Made by a program: the position numbers and the translations under genes
Shown here: one piece after another, positions 39,246-47,149 of the stretch
Numbering within the stretch: the first letter of the stretch is position 1
Layout: each line of letters starts with the position of its first letter
Virus record (IMG/VR): IMGVR_UViG_3300009604_000012
Location: 1-57,594 of that record
From: a virus
Length of the DNA stretch: 57,594 nt
Direction: 5' to 3' (one strand)
Notes under the pieces: generated by a model
What the model was told of the DNA's origin: nothing
What the model saw: only the letters and a program-made list of their open reading frames with translations
Database searches by the model: none

Positions 39246-39998
39246 ATGCCGAAGAAACGCAAGCGGAATGTGATCGTCTGGGATATCGAATCCACGAATC
39301 TCTCAGCGAATTTCGGCTATGTACTCTGTATTGGTTGGAAGCGTTTGGATTCCCCACGGGTCTACGTACCTGCGTTACGTGATTTCAATGGGGTGTGTAA
39401 GACATGCCACCAAGTGAACGATCCGATCAACGACCGTAGATTACTGGAGCATATCTATCCCATCCTTGCAGAAGCCGATGCGTGGATTACATGGTTTGGA
39501 AAGGGGTTCGACCAGAAGTTCGTCAACACCCGACTGATGCACCATGGCATGGCTCCACTGCCGCCAGTTCCACACATTGATGGGTGGCGCACCGCGAAAT
39601 CCAAACTAAAGCTCACCTCGAACCGACTCGCAACAGTCCAACAGTTCCTTGATCTCCCAGTGAGTAAGACCTCAGTGGGTGGAAAGCAATGGAACCTGGC
39701 AAGTGGAGGTGATCCGAAGGCAGCGGATTACATCATTGACCATTGCAGAAAAGATGTGAAGGTGTTGGAGCAAGCCTACGAAAAGATGCTCCCCCTGATT
39801 GTGGATTCACCACATATGGGGTTGATCAAGGGGAAGCCAGAGGGGTGTCCACGTTGTGGGTTGCCTACACTCAAGACGAATCCCTCTTGGTTTTATTCTT
39901 CGGCCACCCGCAGTTACCAACGATACCAATGTACCGCATGTGGGGGGTGGTGTAAGGGGAGTAAGGCGATTGATCGCTCTACCATTATGGCTATTTAG
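39246..39998 (+). CDS. DEDDh 3'-5' exonuclease with zinc ribbon
   Basis: 250 residues. Asp13 and Glu15 (VWDIESTNLS), Asp89 (GKGFDQKF) and His166/Asp170 (HCRKD) form the full DEDDh set of RNase H-like exonucleases. The C-terminus has Cys201, Cys204, Cys229 and Cys232 (CPRC, CTAC), a zinc ribbon. The fold resembles YprB-type nucleases rather than DnaQ. It is in the late strand, not with the other replication genes, and opens the accessory cassette. A second exonuclease is fused to the uracil glycosylase at 45031-46143. Substrate unknown. Confidence 0.8.
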   Translation: MPKKRKRNVIVWDIESTNLSANFGYVLCIGWKRLDSPRVYVPALRDFNGVCKTCHQVNDPINDRRLLEHIYPILAEADAWITWFGKGFDQKFVNTRLMHHGMAPLPPVPHIDGWRTAKSKLKLTSNRLATVQQFLDLPVSKTSVGGKQWNLASGGDPKAADYIIDHCRKDVKVLEQAYEKMLPLIVDSPHMGLIKGKPEGCPRCGLPTLKTNPSWFYSSATRSYQRYQCTACGGWCKGSKAIDRSTIMAI

Positions 39999-40018
39999 GG
40001 AGGATGAAGGAGTCGGAG

Positions 40019-40672
40019 ATGCGGTGGCTACTAGCGGTAAGCCTTGTGCTTGCCATGTGCATGACTCCCCAAACAATAGCGAAAGACCTGAGTGGGCTAG
40101 CAGAACAGATGCGGGAATCCATTACCCGCATTCGGATGACCGGACCTGTGGTGCGATGGGGCACCTGCTCTGCGTTCTCCATTAACCAAGAGCGCGGGTG
40201 GGGCCTAACCGCAGAGCATTGCGTGGTCACGGTGAATGGCTTTGAGTTTCGGGTGGTCGATGACCAGTCCAGACCATTGGAGATTATTGCTCGGTCTTCC
40301 ACCATCTTCCCACCACGACCGGAAGACGACCTTGCGTTGCTGGAGGGGGATATCTTTCGGGAACTCCCTGCACTCACCGCACTCACCATCGTACCCGAGG
40401 TTGGCACGGTTGTGGCGACGTATGGTTTTGCGCGTGGTGAACGGAATCCATTCTTCTATGTGAGTAATGTCGCTCGCACCCGACCGAGGTGGTTCAGTTT
40501 GGAAATGGCTGGCTCACTCCTCGGCGGGATGAGTGGTGCCCCTGTCGTGAATGACAAAGCACAGGTGATTGGTCTGGTGACCAAGGGCACAGCCTCGAAC
40601 ACTTACATCATTGGGAGTTGGCATTTCCAAGAACTCTACAAAGCTGCTGTCAAACAACATGAAAACCAATAA
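40019..40672 (+). CDS. Secreted trypsin-like serine protease
   Basis: The start ATG 40019 has AAGGAG at 6 bases; the earlier ATG 40004 has its SD too close. 217 residues. A signal peptide (MRWLLAVSLVLAMCMTPQTI then AK) sends it to the periplasm. The catalytic triad of the chymotrypsin fold is visible: His67 in LTAEHC, Asp103 or Asp104 in PEDDLALLEG, Ser172 in GGMSGAPVV. Cys50 and Cys68 may form a disulphide. The strand order (TCSAFSIN, GWGLTAEHC) is typical. It lies 13 bases before the PqqA-like peptide gene. Possible roles: cleaving a phage or host periplasmic protein, or trimming the peptide next door. Confidence 0.85.
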   Translation: MRWLLAVSLVLAMCMTPQTIAKDLSGLAEQMRESITRIRMTGPVVRWGTCSAFSINQERGWGLTAEHCVVTVNGFEFRVVDDQSRPLEIIARSSTIFPPRPEDDLALLEGDIFRELPALTALTIVPEVGTVVATYGFARGERNPFFYVSNVARTRPRWFSLEMAGSLLGGMSGAPVVNDKAQVIGLVTKGTASNTYIIGSWHFQELYKAAVKQHENQ

Positions 40673-40685
40673 AGGAGGAAAGACT

Positions 40686-40760
40686 ATGACTTGGACAAAA
40701 CCTGAGATCAAAGCGATTGCCTTGAACATGGAAGTTAGTCTGTATGTAACCGCGCACTAA
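40686..40760 (+). CDS. pqqA: PqqA-like peptide (24 aa), PQQ precursor type
   Basis: ATG 40686 follows the best SD in the window (AAAGGAGG, 7 bases). The peptide begins MTWTKPEIK and ends MEVSLYVTAH. It has the marks of the PQQ precursor: WxKP near the start and Glu16-x3-Tyr20, the two residues that PqqE joins. Known precursors have the same parts at similar spacing, for example LEVTLYISNR in Klebsiella PqqA and GMEVTSY in Methylorubrum. No pqqB, C, D or E gene is in the window, so host enzymes would be needed. A chance match is possible for so short a frame. If real, it would be a phage-encoded substrate for PQQ synthesis. Confidence 0.6.
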   Translation: MTWTKPEIKAIALNMEVSLYVTAH

Positions 40761-40764
40761 CCAC

Positions 40765-41295
40765 ATGGACAGCGCACTCGGGTGGATTGGGCAGATTGCG
40801 GCGTGGGTTCGGCAGTTTATTCCAAAATGGATCATCATCCCCACGACACATGGTGGGGTGAAGTGGGTCAGAGGGAAGCGACTGGTCGAACTCACGCCGG
40901 GGATACACTGGTATTGGCCGGTCGTGACGGTCCTGCAAACATATCCTATTGTTCGCCAGTCGGTGGACCTGCGCCCACAGGTGATGGTCGCCGCAAACGG
41001 GAAGACCTTCTCGGCGGGGGTGGTGGTGACCTATACCGTGGAGGACCTGAAGCAACTCCTCTCAACCACCTTTGATCCTGATGAGGTGATGTCTGAGATT
41101 TCCCTCGCGGCGATTTACTCAGTACTAACCACCTTGACACTTGAAGAACTCCAGACCAGTGATATCTCTGCGACACTGACGGAGGCGATTCAGGAACTGG
41201 TCACACCCTACGGGGTGCATGTGGTGCGAGCGGCACTCACGGAGATGGCTCCCTGCCGGGTAGTGAAGCTCATCATTCCCCCAGCTATCCAGTAA
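40765..41295 (+). CDS. SPFH/band-7 domain protein (176 aa)
   Basis: Starts 4 bases after the PqqA-like stop. An N-terminal hydrophobic part (GWIGQIAAWVRQFIPKWIII) may lie in the membrane. Then the band-7 fold is visible: VKWVRGKRLVELTPGIHWYW, a hinge, YPIVRQSVDLRPQVMVAANG, TFSAGVVVTYTVEDL, then a helical part ending in VVRAALTEM. Such proteins (HflK/HflC, stomatin) form ring scaffolds in membranes and can guard proteases such as FtsH. A phage copy could protect or reorganise the host membrane. Its job with the neighbouring peptide is unknown. Confidence 0.75.
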   Translation: MDSALGWIGQIAAWVRQFIPKWIIIPTTHGGVKWVRGKRLVELTPGIHWYWPVVTVLQTYPIVRQSVDLRPQVMVAANGKTFSAGVVVTYTVEDLKQLLSTTFDPDEVMSEISLAAIYSVLTTLTLEELQTSDISATLTEAIQELVTPYGVHVVRAALTEMAPCRVVKLIIPPAIQ

Positions 41296-42349: not shown

Positions 42350-42621
42350 CCAACGAGTTCTCCTATTGGCACCAGTGTGGCGGTCTGTTTTTCGATGCCG
42401 ACAATTTCCATCTGATCAATCCGACTCCCAGTCTCGACCATCATGGGTCCCATGTCTTCATCGTCTGTGGCTTCAGTCAGTGCAACAAACGGAGCTTCCT
42501 TCGCGAGAGCGACTACCTCTTCCCATGATTGTGCAATGAGATGCACCTGGCCCATGGCTTGTGACCCGTTTGACATGAAGGTGAAGGTCACCTTCCAGTC
42601 AAAAGTTTTTTGAAAGTTCAT
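42346..42621 (-). CDS. Hypothetical protein (91 aa)
   Basis: ATG 42619-42621 follows GGAGA; a longer frame starting at 42765 lies inside the polymerase gene and was rejected. The protein reads as alternating beta strands and one helix (DWKVTFTFMSNGSQAMGQVH, SWEEVVALAKEAPFVALTEA), with an acidic middle. It is small, soluble and without cysteine. It is coupled to the nucleotidase (ATGA) and overlaps the end of the polymerase by 4 nt. No family recognised. Confidence 0.6.
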   Translation of the reverse strand: MNFQKTFDWKVTFTFMSNGSQAMGQVHLIAQSWEEVVALAKEAPFVALTEATDDEDMGPMMVETGSRIDQMEIVGIEKQTATLVPIGELVG

Positions 42622-44144
42622 ACCGTCTCCATGTCGGCCCAGTTTCTTCCGACCTTGACTTCCACATCTATCGTGAGTCCTCCCATTTGTGGGATAGGTC
42701 GCGTCATAATCTCTGTCAGTAAGGCCACTGCTGCATCGACTTTGTCTTCTGGCACATCGAGGCATTGCGAGTCATGGATATGTCCAATGGCACACATATA
42801 CGGTGCCGCCCAACTCTTCCCTAGCAAGGCAAGGTTCTCCCGTTGGAAGAGGGCATTCGAGGATTGCGGTTTGAACGCGACGACAGCGTTTGCATCCTCA
42901 CCCGGTCTGAATTGTTTCGTGCGAGTGTCCTTCGTATAGACCTGATAGTAATAATTGCGTAGTCCCCACGGGGTTTCAAGATAGCCATTGCGCCACGCTT
43001 CTTTTCGCAGGTCCGTGTGCCATGCGGCAAGATCGGGGAGCAGTTGCAGAAACCGGGCAATCTCTGCCTTCGCCTCCTTCACCGAGGGAAAGGCATCGGG
43101 ATACTGCTCATGCAACAGCTTTGCCCCCATGCCATAACTTACACCGTGGGTGACTCGTTTCTTCCGGGCATATAACAACGCATGCTTGGGGCTGTTCTTG
43201 ACCAAGCGTTTGTTCTCAGCGTTCCATTCCAAACCCAGCTCACGACAGGCAGCATAGGCATGCACTCCCTGTCGGGCAATCTCCATGTAGCTTTGTGATC
43301 CCATGAACCACCCCGACATCACCGCTTCGATAGACGAGGAATCCGCTTCAACAAACACACACCCTTCGCTGGGGATAATACATCGCCGCACATCGTCAGC
43401 ATAGGGGACATCCCCACGATGACTGACGTTCATCAGGTTGTGTTCCTGTTGCGCTAACCGAAAGGTCTCTGGGTTGTGGGTGTAGCGTCCATAGATATAC
43501 CCACGCGCATCAGGTATCCACGCATCGACATAGCGGGTCTTGGTGGTGTTGACCTTTCGGCCCTTGAGCACCAGTGCATAGATCGGATGGTCCGTGCCGT
43601 AGTGCTTGACGAGCTTCTGCAACTGGTCTTCATTCAACACCGACCGCTCTCCGGTGTCCTTGTTCAGTCCGAGTGCGTGTTGCTGGTGTGCGGCATAGTC
43701 TTTTAACTGGTCGGTGCTCAGGGGGTTAAACGGCAGACGCACATTGTATTCATTGATGCGTTCGTCTCGGGTGAGAATCTCCGCTTTGTAACAGGGGTTA
43801 AGGGGGATGCCCCCACGCCCCCCTTTCCTCGTGGTGTGCTTCGCTTTCGTAACGGGGTAGGCTCCACACCGTGAGCAAACTTTGGTGGGTTTCCTGACCG
43901 GGATCGGTTCAATGGGGAGGTCGGTCTCGGGTAGGTTCTTGAATCGCTTGGTCGGACGAATTTCCATCGGCGCATGCCGTGCCGCCCACGATTTGTAATG
44001 GTCAACCCGCCGATTGAGCTTGTGTTGTAGGTCAAGTCTCGCCTCATTATCCACACGCACCCCGTGGACCTTGCCCATTTGCCAGAGCACTGGGTCCAGA
44101 TGATGCACGTAGTCCAGATAGAAATCCCAACGGGTTCGTGCCAT
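42618..44144 (-). CDS. Family A DNA polymerase (no exonuclease domain)
   Basis: 508 residues. Motif A has Asp268 (FVEADSSSIEAVM), motif B has Lys329 and Tyr337 (KKRVTHGVSYGMG), motif C has Asp458 (HIHDSQ). Both catalytic Asp are present, but the usual Glu after the second is Ser, and the E. coli Phe762 position seems to be His. The N-terminal 250 residues have a Cys90/Cys93/Cys118 cluster (CSRC, NPC) that may bind zinc and no 3'-5' exonuclease motif. The exonuclease is on another gene (45031-46143). Weak SD. Replicates the phage DNA. Confidence 0.9.
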   Translation of the reverse strand: MARTRWDFYLDYVHHLDPVLWQMGKVHGVRVDNEARLDLQHKLNRRVDHYKSWAARHAPMEIRPTKRFKNLPETDLPIEPIPVRKPTKVCSRCGAYPVTKAKHTTRKGGRGGIPLNPCYKAEILTRDERINEYNVRLPFNPLSTDQLKDYAAHQQHALGLNKDTGERSVLNEDQLQKLVKHYGTDHPIYALVLKGRKVNTTKTRYVDAWIPDARGYIYGRYTHNPETFRLAQQEHNLMNVSHRGDVPYADDVRRCIIPSEGCVFVEADSSSIEAVMSGWFMGSQSYMEIARQGVHAYAACRELGLEWNAENKRLVKNSPKHALLYARKKRVTHGVSYGMGAKLLHEQYPDAFPSVKEAKAEIARFLQLLPDLAAWHTDLRKEAWRNGYLETPWGLRNYYYQVYTKDTRTKQFRPGEDANAVVAFKPQSSNALFQRENLALLGKSWAAPYMCAIGHIHDSQCLDVPEDKVDAAVALLTEIMTRPIPQMGGLTIDVEVKVGRNWADMETV

Positions 44145-44715: not shown

Positions 44716-45034
44716 AGGCAATCGGCTCGGTTTCTTCGAGGACCTCTTCAGCTTCTGTTCGTGCTTCGTCTTTTGCGATTTCAATCTCAGCCCGTAATCG
44801 ACTCAGGGTTTTCTCCCAGAGATTCAGGAACTCTTCTTTCCAAACCTCTGCAAAGGTATGGTTCACATGACCGGACCATGGGCAACAGACCCTTCCGGCA
44901 GCAGACTGTGCATGGATGATGGTTCGTTCGATGTATTCTTGGAATTCCTCGTGATTCCCCGGCTGCTTGGCGATGGCTAAATCCTGTTGGCACTTTCGCA
45001 AGTCCCCAAGTTTGGTGGTCATATTGGTGGTCAT
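44708..45034 (-). CDS. Hypothetical coiled-coil protein (108 aa)
   Basis: ATG 45032-45034 overlaps the TGA of the UDG-exonuclease gene (ATGA). The C-terminal 60 residues are an acidic helix (TLSRLRAEIEIAKDEARTEA then EEVLEETEP). A short Cys-rich part (AAGRVCCPWSGHVNHTF) lies in the middle. It is co-translated with replication genes and may bind a replication protein. No known family. Confidence 0.6.
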   Translation of the reverse strand: MTTNMTTKLGDLRKCQQDLAIAKQPGNHEEFQEYIERTIIHAQSAAGRVCCPWSGHVNHTFAEVWKEEFLNLWEKTLSRLRAEIEIAKDEARTEAEEVLEETEPIAYG

Positions 45035-46143
45035 AGCTGTTGCCCTTTCAAGACACGTTCAATATGGAGGAAGTTCTCTAGTGCGGCATCCGAATCGATA
45101 CAGTTGTAGAGTGCAGGTTCTGCGAGGTTCAGATGTTTCCACGGTTGAATATGGTCAGAGCACAGTGAGGTCACGAACTCTAATCCTTTGGGCAGGTTCG
45201 GCAACCACACATGAAAGGCATTCATGCCATCGTGCAGGTCTCCGTTCACCTCAACACCAGCATCCCGCACGATAGGGATGTCGAATGCCTTGGCATTCCA
45301 TCCCACCATTGGCCTATTCACACCGAGGAGTGTGGTGATGATTGGCATCCATGGGGCTTGCCATGGCACCGACATCGCATGACCTACGCGAAATGAAAAG
45401 CTGATACGCAGGATGTCTGCGCTGGTGGATTCTCCAAGCTGTGATTCGTCTTTGTTTATTTTATAGGGGGTCTCGATGTCCCACGACAGATAGCAATCGG
45501 GTGTGCGTTCGTATTCCTGCACGAACCGCATCGCTTGGTGGGGGTGGGGGTCGAGGAGATATTTTGGAATGCGTTTGGTAAAGCCATCTCGTGCGATGCG
45601 TATCGCTTTTCTGATGTCACTAATCACTGGGCCTGTCCACTTGGCTGAACTCTTCTCTCGTTTCCGTGGAAGGAGGAAGCTCGGGTGGAAGGTGGGCACC
45701 ACGGGAATCCCCTTGGGTCCGTCGAGTATAGACCCACGGTAGCGCATGATTCCTAATTGACCAGTCAGCCGCCGCATGGGGACATTGCCCAAGGCTACGA
45801 GGGCTTTGGGGGCTAGCCTCTCAATGCTGCCATCAAGTAAGGGCCGACAATGATTGATCGCAGTGAACTCGTAGGGCGCATGTGAGAGTTTGTTCTGTGG
45901 TGGCTGGCAGTGGATGACGTTCTCCACAAAGATATCGTCTCGACTCAGCCCCGCCCGTGCGAGGAGCATACTAAGTTGCCACCCGGCGAGTCCCTGGAAA
46001 TGTTTACCAGTGGCGGCTTCATCTTTTCCCAAGGCTTCTCCCACAACCAGCACTTCCTTGGCGAAGCCTCCATCTGGTATTCCAAATCCAGTTCCCCGCT
46101 TCTCTAGTGGACACCCACGACAGAGCGGCGGTTTGGTGGTCAT
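45031..46143 (-). CDS. Family 4 uracil-DNA glycosylase fused to DEDDy exonuclease
   Basis: 370 residues. Part 1 (1-165): Cys8, Cys11, Cys79 and Cys99 fit the iron-sulphur site of family 4 UDG; VGEALGKDEAATGKHFQG and TFHPSFLL are its active-site motifs. Part 2 (215-365): Asp222/Glu224 (SWDIETP), Asp288 (KAFDIPI) and Tyr346/Asp350 (YNCID) complete a DEDDy 3'-5' exonuclease. The pairing suggests proofreading of a polymerase that lacks its own exonuclease (42618-44144), with uracil removal on the same protein. Start ATG 46143 overlaps the integrase stop. The order on the strand is recombinase, this gene, small coiled-coil, methylase, polymerase. Confidence 0.9.
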   Translation of the reverse strand: MTTKPPLCRGCPLEKRGTGFGIPDGGFAKEVLVVGEALGKDEAATGKHFQGLAGWQLSMLLARAGLSRDDIFVENVIHCQPPQNKLSHAPYEFTAINHCRPLLDGSIERLAPKALVALGNVPMRRLTGQLGIMRYRGSILDGPKGIPVVPTFHPSFLLPRKREKSSAKWTGPVISDIRKAIRIARDGFTKRIPKYLLDPHPHQAMRFVQEYERTPDCYLSWDIETPYKINKDESQLGESTSADILRISFSFRVGHAMSVPWQAPWMPIITTLLGVNRPMVGWNAKAFDIPIVRDAGVEVNGDLHDGMNAFHVWLPNLPKGLEFVTSLCSDHIQPWKHLNLAEPALYNCIDSDAALENFLHIERVLKGQQL

Positions 46144-46970
46144 GCCAGTCGAGCGATAGCTGCCCGGTCTTCATCTTCGACATCGGTGGCGTTGAGATAG
46201 CGCATGGTGGTAGTGATTTGCTGATGCCCCAACAGACGCTGGATGGTGGGTAGTGAGACCTTCTCATCGAGGAGTCTCGATCCAAACTCATGGCGCAAGT
46301 CATGCCACCTGATGTCAGGGGCATCGGCTTTCTTCCGTGCTTGGTCCCACGCATACTGGTTCCACTTAAACAGTGGCTTCCGTGTACCAACCTTCGCCAA
46401 GCGTTCCTTCAATAACACACACACTCGGTCGGTCATTGGAATCTTCTGTGTGCGTTTCTGTTTTTGGATATTTGCAGGTACGGTAATGGTGCGTTTCTTG
46501 ATATCAACATGCCGTGCATGCAGTTGGCACAAGGCACCTCGGCGCAAGCCGGTATCACAGGCCAGCATGAAGAGTGCGCGTAAGGAATCACCCATGTTCG
46601 CAAGCAGGTCACGTTCCTGCTGTTCGGTCAGGCGCACATCCCGTTGGTTCAGCTCAGGTTCCAACGTCAGGCATTGGGGAAACTGAAAGGACCCATACCG
46701 CACGCTCGGTGTGAGAAATTCGGGATACTTTCGGAGCATGTGCTTCATCACCGCACGATAGCGATTGCGTGTGGCGGCTGACCCAGGCATGTGTGTGAGG
46801 TAGGCTTCAAGTGCCTCAACAGTTGGGACATCGCCAAGGTGTTCAGCGATACGTCGAAGGCGACAGACATCTGACGAGATCGACTTACGATAGACACGCA
46901 AGTAGTTCTCTGTATAGCGTTCGACAATATCCGAAAGCGTAACACTGGGAATTAGTATGTTTGTTGTCAT
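46140..46970 (-). CDS. Tyrosine recombinase (integrase type)
   Basis: ATG 46968-46970 follows AGGAGG; a longer frame to 47111 has no SD and an Arg/Ser-rich start. 276 residues with a SAM-like N-terminus (TENYLRVYRKSISSDVCRLR) and a catalytic part with Arg143/144 (TGLRRGAL), a Lys in the 170-176 beta hairpin, His223-x-x-Arg226 (HDLRH), His249 (LLGHQQ) and Tyr258 (TMRYLN). All residues are present. No attachment site or excisionase is seen. It is coupled by ATGA to the UDG-exonuclease, inside the replication operon. Confidence 0.9.
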   Translation of the reverse strand: MTTNILIPSVTLSDIVERYTENYLRVYRKSISSDVCRLRRIAEHLGDVPTVEALEAYLTHMPGSAATRNRYRAVMKHMLRKYPEFLTPSVRYGSFQFPQCLTLEPELNQRDVRLTEQQERDLLANMGDSLRALFMLACDTGLRRGALCQLHARHVDIKKRTITVPANIQKQKRTQKIPMTDRVCVLLKERLAKVGTRKPLFKWNQYAWDQARKKADAPDIRWHDLRHEFGSRLLDEKVSLPTIQRLLGHQQITTTMRYLNATDVEDEDRAAIARLA

Positions 46971-47149
46971 AAGGTATGTCCTCCTACAAAAGTGGGAGTG
47001 ACCACAGCTCCGAACCAAAGAAAACCGTAGCCACTCCCTGCGAGAACTCCATCGGAGAACAGACCGTCGTGTCTCCGTCGAGGGAGGTACCGCACTGGGA
47101 GACGGCACCACGGGACCGGCAGTCCTAAGAGAATGGAGTCCCGCAATCC

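Follow-up and report, generated by a model that had tools for sequence, protein, structure and literature searches.

A stand-alone pqqA gene of acidobacterial type in a phage genome, and its counterparts in other phages

The pqqA locus and the genome that carries it

The window, meaning the whole stretch of 57,594 nucleotides that was analysed (IMG/VR virus record IMGVR_UViG_3300009604_000012), encodes at positions 40686-40760 of its plus strand the peptide MTWTKPEIKAIALNMEVSLYVTAH. The gene, its landmark codons and its neighbours are as follows.

39246..39998, + strand: RNase H-like (exonuclease-like) protein in the gene run of pqqA (RNase_H_2, E = 8.9e-11)
40004..40672, + strand: trypsin-like serine protease, upstream neighbour of pqqA (Trypsin_2, E = 2.6e-10)
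40672..40678, + strand: Shine-Dalgarno sequence AAGGAGG of pqqA, with a 7-nt spacer to the ATG, overlapping the stop codon upstream
40686..40760, + strand: pqqA, 24-residue PQQ precursor peptide (translation, sole PqqA match in two libraries, independent HMM, DNA identity to the UBA2990 pqqA)
40692-40694, + strand: Trp3 of the phage PqqA
40698-40700, + strand: Lys5
40701-40703, + strand: Pro6
40731-40733, + strand: Glu16
40743-40745, + strand: Tyr20
40765..41295, + strand: short band-7/SPFH protein, downstream neighbour of pqqA (Band_7, E = 3.4e-17)
46140-47111, - strand: tyrosine integrase

The peptide (MTWTKP..., 24 residues) has the W-x-x-P leader and the length of roughly 22-29 residues that are typical of PqqA, and the pair of residues cross-linked by PqqE, a Glu and a Tyr with three residues between them, is intact as Glu16 and Tyr20; an earlier note on this DNA, which had described a 24-codon PqqA-like gene with W-x-K-P and Glu-x3-Tyr, was therefore correct in its reading. 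Its description of the Shine-Dalgarno site as the best of the window is essentially right, because the AAGGAGG core occurs only here among the 69 ORFs ranked, while the length of the anti-Shine-Dalgarno match (7 nt), one of the two longest, is shared with one other ORF. The gene is also as tightly packed as had been stated, starting 13 nt after the end of the protease gene and ending 4 nt before the band-7 gene. Scans of the window for promoters and terminators gave nothing beyond what was obtained with shuffled sequence.

The carrier is a genuine phage genome, with genes for a terminase, portal, capsid, lysozyme-like protein, DNA polymerase, Dam methylase and tyrosine integrase. A second contig of 46.5 kb (IMGVR_UViG_3300009620_000007), at least 99.97% identical to the window over the parts compared, spans the 57594/1 junction of the window with a real 100-nt bridge that is missing from the window itself, and the genome map closes into a circle of about 57.69 kb, of which the window is a circular permutation. 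Because this permuted contig bridges the ends of the window, the genome is effectively complete, and the earlier statement that no PQQ enzymes are present therefore applies to the whole phage: tblastn with the UBA2990 proteins (see below) found no PqqB, PqqC, PqqD or PqqE in the window, nor in some 130 other viral loci, and a PQQ alcohol dehydrogenase model found no PQQ-dehydrogenase in the window. The tyrosine integrase suggests that the phage may be temperate, so that pqqA could also act in lysogens. Searches for related phages with the protease, band-7 protein or DNA polymerase retrieved only the near-identical contig of the same phage; the synteny with protease and band-7 genes that had been suggested as a general feature is found in that copy alone.

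Two further features of the genome were observed. The uracil-DNA-glycosylase-domain protein (45031-46143, - strand) and the DNA polymerase (42618-44144, - strand) correspond to different parts of phrog_17, a single long PHROG polymerase family, and the window looks like a two-gene split of it. A CobS-like AAA ATPase (1351-2538, - strand) belongs to phrog_249, 'porphyrin biosynthesis'; such genes are frequently labelled auxiliary metabolic genes, a role that is doubtful.

Relationship to cellular PqqA

PqqA was the sole match of the phage ORF in both the Pfam library (PF08042; E = 0.008, 16.7 bits against a cut-off of 21.1) and the NCBIfam library (TIGR02107; E = 0.0054, 16.6 bits against a cut-off of 20). 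In the profile check that the earlier note had proposed, PqqA was the only family matched, although the peptide did not reach the curated cut-off of either library, and such a cut-off is a score convention rather than a biochemical feature. The shortfall is due largely to the substitutions T18S and R24H, the only differences from the closest cellular PqqA found, that of Acidobacteria bacterium UBA2990 (DEAE01000024.1), MTWTKPEIKAIALNMEVTLYVTAR, with which 22 of the 24 residues are identical. The UBA2990 peptide passes both cut-offs, with 23.7 bits (Pfam) and 23.2 bits (NCBIfam), and its gene adjoins pqqC, pqqB, pqqD and pqqE (assigned from sequence), the PqqE scoring 496 bits with TIGR02109. 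Because a relative only two substitutions away, from such a pqqA-C-B-D-E region, passes both cut-offs, the homology of the phage peptide is not in doubt.

An ORF of just 24 codons might resemble PqqA by chance. With an independent PqqA HMM, from which the window sequence had been left out, the phage ORF nevertheless scored 41.5 bits (E = 3.6e-12), compared with 5.0 for the next best ORF of the window and a maximum of 10.3 bits among the 238,519 small ORFs obtained by shuffling the window 200 times. At the DNA level the gene is 85% identical to the true pqqA of UBA2990, and this identity is confined exactly to the ORF. Sequence comparison thus confirms the ORF as a PqqA homologue, and a chance resemblance, already refuted by these values, has a negligible probability.

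The two genes differ by nine synonymous changes, a swap of stop codon and the two amino-acid changes. Since identity is restricted to the ORF and synonymous changes outnumber amino-acid changes by nine to two, the phage gene is homologous to the cellular gene and is under purifying selection. The same comparison bears on the view that the gene is passenger DNA, a recently acquired host fragment without function. The DNA of the gene is indeed host-like, and only one phage lineage of this type is known; the end of homology at the ORF limits and the mainly synonymous divergence nevertheless disfavour that view, as do the strong Shine-Dalgarno sequence of its own, the tight fit between two phage genes and the retention of the same stand-alone gene by unrelated phages (see below), and we regard it as unlikely.

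A genome scan with the pattern W-T-K-P-x7-N-M-E-V-x2-Y gave seven loci, of which six lie in MAGs of Acidobacteriota, and PqqE exceeded its curated cut-off in all seven genomes holding these nearest cellular PqqAs. The acidobacterial genomes with this PqqA have an unusually large repertoire of PQQ alcohol dehydrogenases, as counted by model matches: 108 in UBA2990, where about seven of the matches listed exceed the strict curated cut-off, and 36-102 in the five others (G001-G006 together, the genomes of loci L123-L126, L128 and L129). This agrees with the report of Acidobacteria genomes encoding up to 70 lanthanide-dependent PQQ dehydrogenases (PMC11996626).

The host of the phage is probably an acidobacterium, as judged from this one short gene and from weak matches of phage genes. 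A search with the capsid gave a single 37% match in 396 acidobacterial genomes, and in 392 planctomycete genomes a single match that was weak and partial; the acidobacterial genome concerned contained no PqqE at E <= 1e-60, so its match does not point to a host that makes PQQ. We also tried the DNA of the integrase region, for which a single 29-nt match in the 396 acidobacterial genomes was unconvincing.

pqqA in other phages

Scanning viral sequences with the pattern W-T-K-P-x9-E-V-x2-Y gave matches in at least 120 IMG/VR contigs. Those listed were all free-standing ORFs that end 22 codons past the Trp and start with an ATG at the Trp or slightly upstream, in most cases behind a Shine-Dalgarno sequence. 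Since Glu and Tyr were fixed in this pattern, the scan was repeated with Glu, Val and Tyr left open. All 123 ORFs matching the blind pattern, which came partly from the first scan, had Glu and Tyr at the correct spacing, Val being replaced by Ile in eight, and the same was true of each of the 15 loci that the blind scan added. The 123 ORFs represent 108 distinct DNA sequences, in which Glu and Tyr are each encoded by either of their two codons. The conservation of Trp, Pro, Glu and Tyr in other phages, on which the earlier note had made its proposal depend, was thus observed, with no loss of Glu or Tyr in any of the 123.

This invariance is informative about a quite different role, in which the phage peptide would act as a decoy or inhibitor that takes up PqqD and PqqE in order to block PQQ synthesis rather than to feed it. 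Such a decoy would need the leader and not Glu or Tyr, yet both residues are invariant, with synonymous codon change at each, and this disfavours the idea. Ser18, common in the acidobacterial-type phage copies where the hosts sampled have Thr18, lies within the Glu-x3-Tyr segment and could be taken to favour it, but Thr to Ser is a conservative change, and we consider a decoy quite improbable. Still less credence attaches to the proposal that the peptide is a RiPP with no connection to PQQ, modified by some other pathway under the direction of the phage: PqqA does form part of a wider world of radical-SAM peptides, and a sactipeptide model gave very weak secondary matches in two phage homologues, but the phage has no evident radical SAM, PqqD-like or peptidase partner, and both the residues and their spacing match those of PQQ synthesis exactly.

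A pqqA gene is also carried by cultured phages that infect obligate methylotrophs, namely Venkman, P19250A, MEP301, MEP401, MEP402 and Melnitz (the Methylophilales phage records with the gene are MT375522.1, KX815270.1, MW452941.1, OP830906.1, OP830907.1 and MZ577095-MZ577098). In these the gene is intact, and is either unannotated or overlapped by a 'hypothetical protein' on the opposite strand; ORFs as short as pqqA are frequently missed by gene callers. A tblastn search of the phage collection with the window peptide gave no match, whereas a methylophage-type peptide does retrieve phages.

The acidobacterial type of pqqA was also found in siphovirus contigs (loci L131, L134, L074 and L130), whose structural genes, including a Mu-type portal and a tape measure gene, are unrelated to those of the window. 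Here pqqA lies between genes that by position resemble those of the tail tube and tail chaperone. The phage pqqA genes in general are located in tail modules or behind structural genes, with strong Shine-Dalgarno sequences.

Residue 18 was observed to be Ser (E-V-S-L-Y; window 40737-40739) in most acidobacterial-type phage PqqAs, namely those of the window, L134, L074 and L130, and Thr in the cellular acidobacterial PqqAs found and in L131. The pattern could be due to exchange between phages, to an unsampled host group or to adaptation.

Two candidates were set aside. Contig IMGVR_UViG_3300025267_000020 (L177-L179) has a pqqA at each end, but the two ends repeat one structural module at 70-78% identity, so that two phage variants were more likely joined in assembly than two PqqA copies present in a single phage. 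The records of 'Acinetobacter phage MD-2021a' (CAKLQF020000010.1 and CAKLQH020000055.1) resemble bacterial chromosome DNA, and the PqqA of the former is probably mislabelled bacterial DNA, because pqqA-B-C-D and a radical SAM gene adjoin ppk.

Proposed role and comparison with known systems

We think it probable, at about 0.7, that this gene is a genuine pqqA which a tailed phage acquired from a bacterium able to make PQQ, most likely an acidobacterium, and that the phage provides its host with extra PqqA. The host PqqD would bind the N-terminal leader of the phage peptide with its W-x-K-P, the host PqqE would connect Glu16 to Tyr20 through their side chains, and PQQ would then be completed by the host protease, PqqB and PqqC. 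This follows the known pathway, in which PqqE together with PqqD links these two residues, after which a protease, PqqB and PqqC complete the cofactor (PMC10906245). The supply of PQQ in infected cells would thereby be kept up or raised, allowing periplasmic PQQ-dependent dehydrogenases to keep working, to the presumed benefit of the phage. The earlier note had named methanol or glucose dehydrogenases as possible targets, but neither is singled out by the data.

One molecule of PqqA is consumed for each PQQ made, so pqqA alone would be the cheapest route to a supply of PQQ. PqqA being a consumable, ribosomally made precursor, a gene of 75 bp could let a phage alter the supply of a cofactor, and the strong Shine-Dalgarno sequences and structural-operon positions of the phage genes fit a need for many copies of the peptide. 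In line with a precursor role, a methylotrophic PQQ producer has five copies of pqqA, and added PqqA was turned into PQQ in a cell extract (PMC9851590).

More tentatively, and with somewhat less than even confidence, we suggest that phages of the PQQ-dehydrogenase-rich Acidobacteriota have a slightly modified, Ser18 form of PqqA of their own, encoded in operons that are expressed late and at a high level, in order to provide the host pathway with an excess of precursor. If so, stand-alone pqqA would be a strategy that phages have evolved repeatedly and use generally across PQQ-dependent bacteria, extending beyond the phages of methylotrophs. Should the precursor role be correct, phage infection would be linked to the oxidation of methanol, alcohols and sugars in abundant PQQ-dependent bacteria. 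The unannotated genes of the cultured methylophages are open to direct testing.

The belief in the earlier note that no phage PqqA had been described has to be corrected, since Coutinho et al. in 2020 reported PqqA in a Methylophilaceae virus and proposed that it boosts PQQ for methanol dehydrogenase (PMC7678222), and a 2026 paper lists viral pqqA (PMC13188868). In the Melnitz, MEP401/402 and Venkman papers whose texts were searched (open-licence PMC), pqqA was not mentioned as a phage gene. What is new here is the acidobacterial type of phage pqqA, found both in the window and within the tail modules of unrelated tailed phages, and the breadth of occurrence of phage pqqA, which is widespread and mostly unannotated.

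Among known systems, the UBA2990 PqqA is closest, sharing with the phage peptide its length, W3-T-K-P6, Glu16 and Tyr20 in addition to the identities given above; apart from residues 18 and 24, the difference is that the phage gene stands alone among phage genes. The siphovirus peptides of L131, L134, L074 and L130 share the core LNMEV[ST]LYVT, mostly with Ser18, and have no pqqB-E found nearby, but their capsid, portal and tail genes are unrelated, and in their tail module pqqA has been inserted upstream of the tape measure gene. The six methylophages named above share the stand-alone gene and Glu-x3-Tyr, but differ in having a core of the MRFGFEVTMY type, unrelated genomes and known hosts, all obligate methylotrophs. 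VP_266, the Methylophilaceae phage population of Coutinho et al., likewise has a stand-alone viral pqqA proposed to boost host PQQ, but of another PqqA type and host group, and it also encodes a methanol dehydrogenase (PMC7678222), whereas the phage of the window has no PQQ dehydrogenase. Finally, the Glu16 and Tyr20 that are cross-linked in the PqqA of M. extorquens (PMC10906245) carry the same numbers in the phage peptide.
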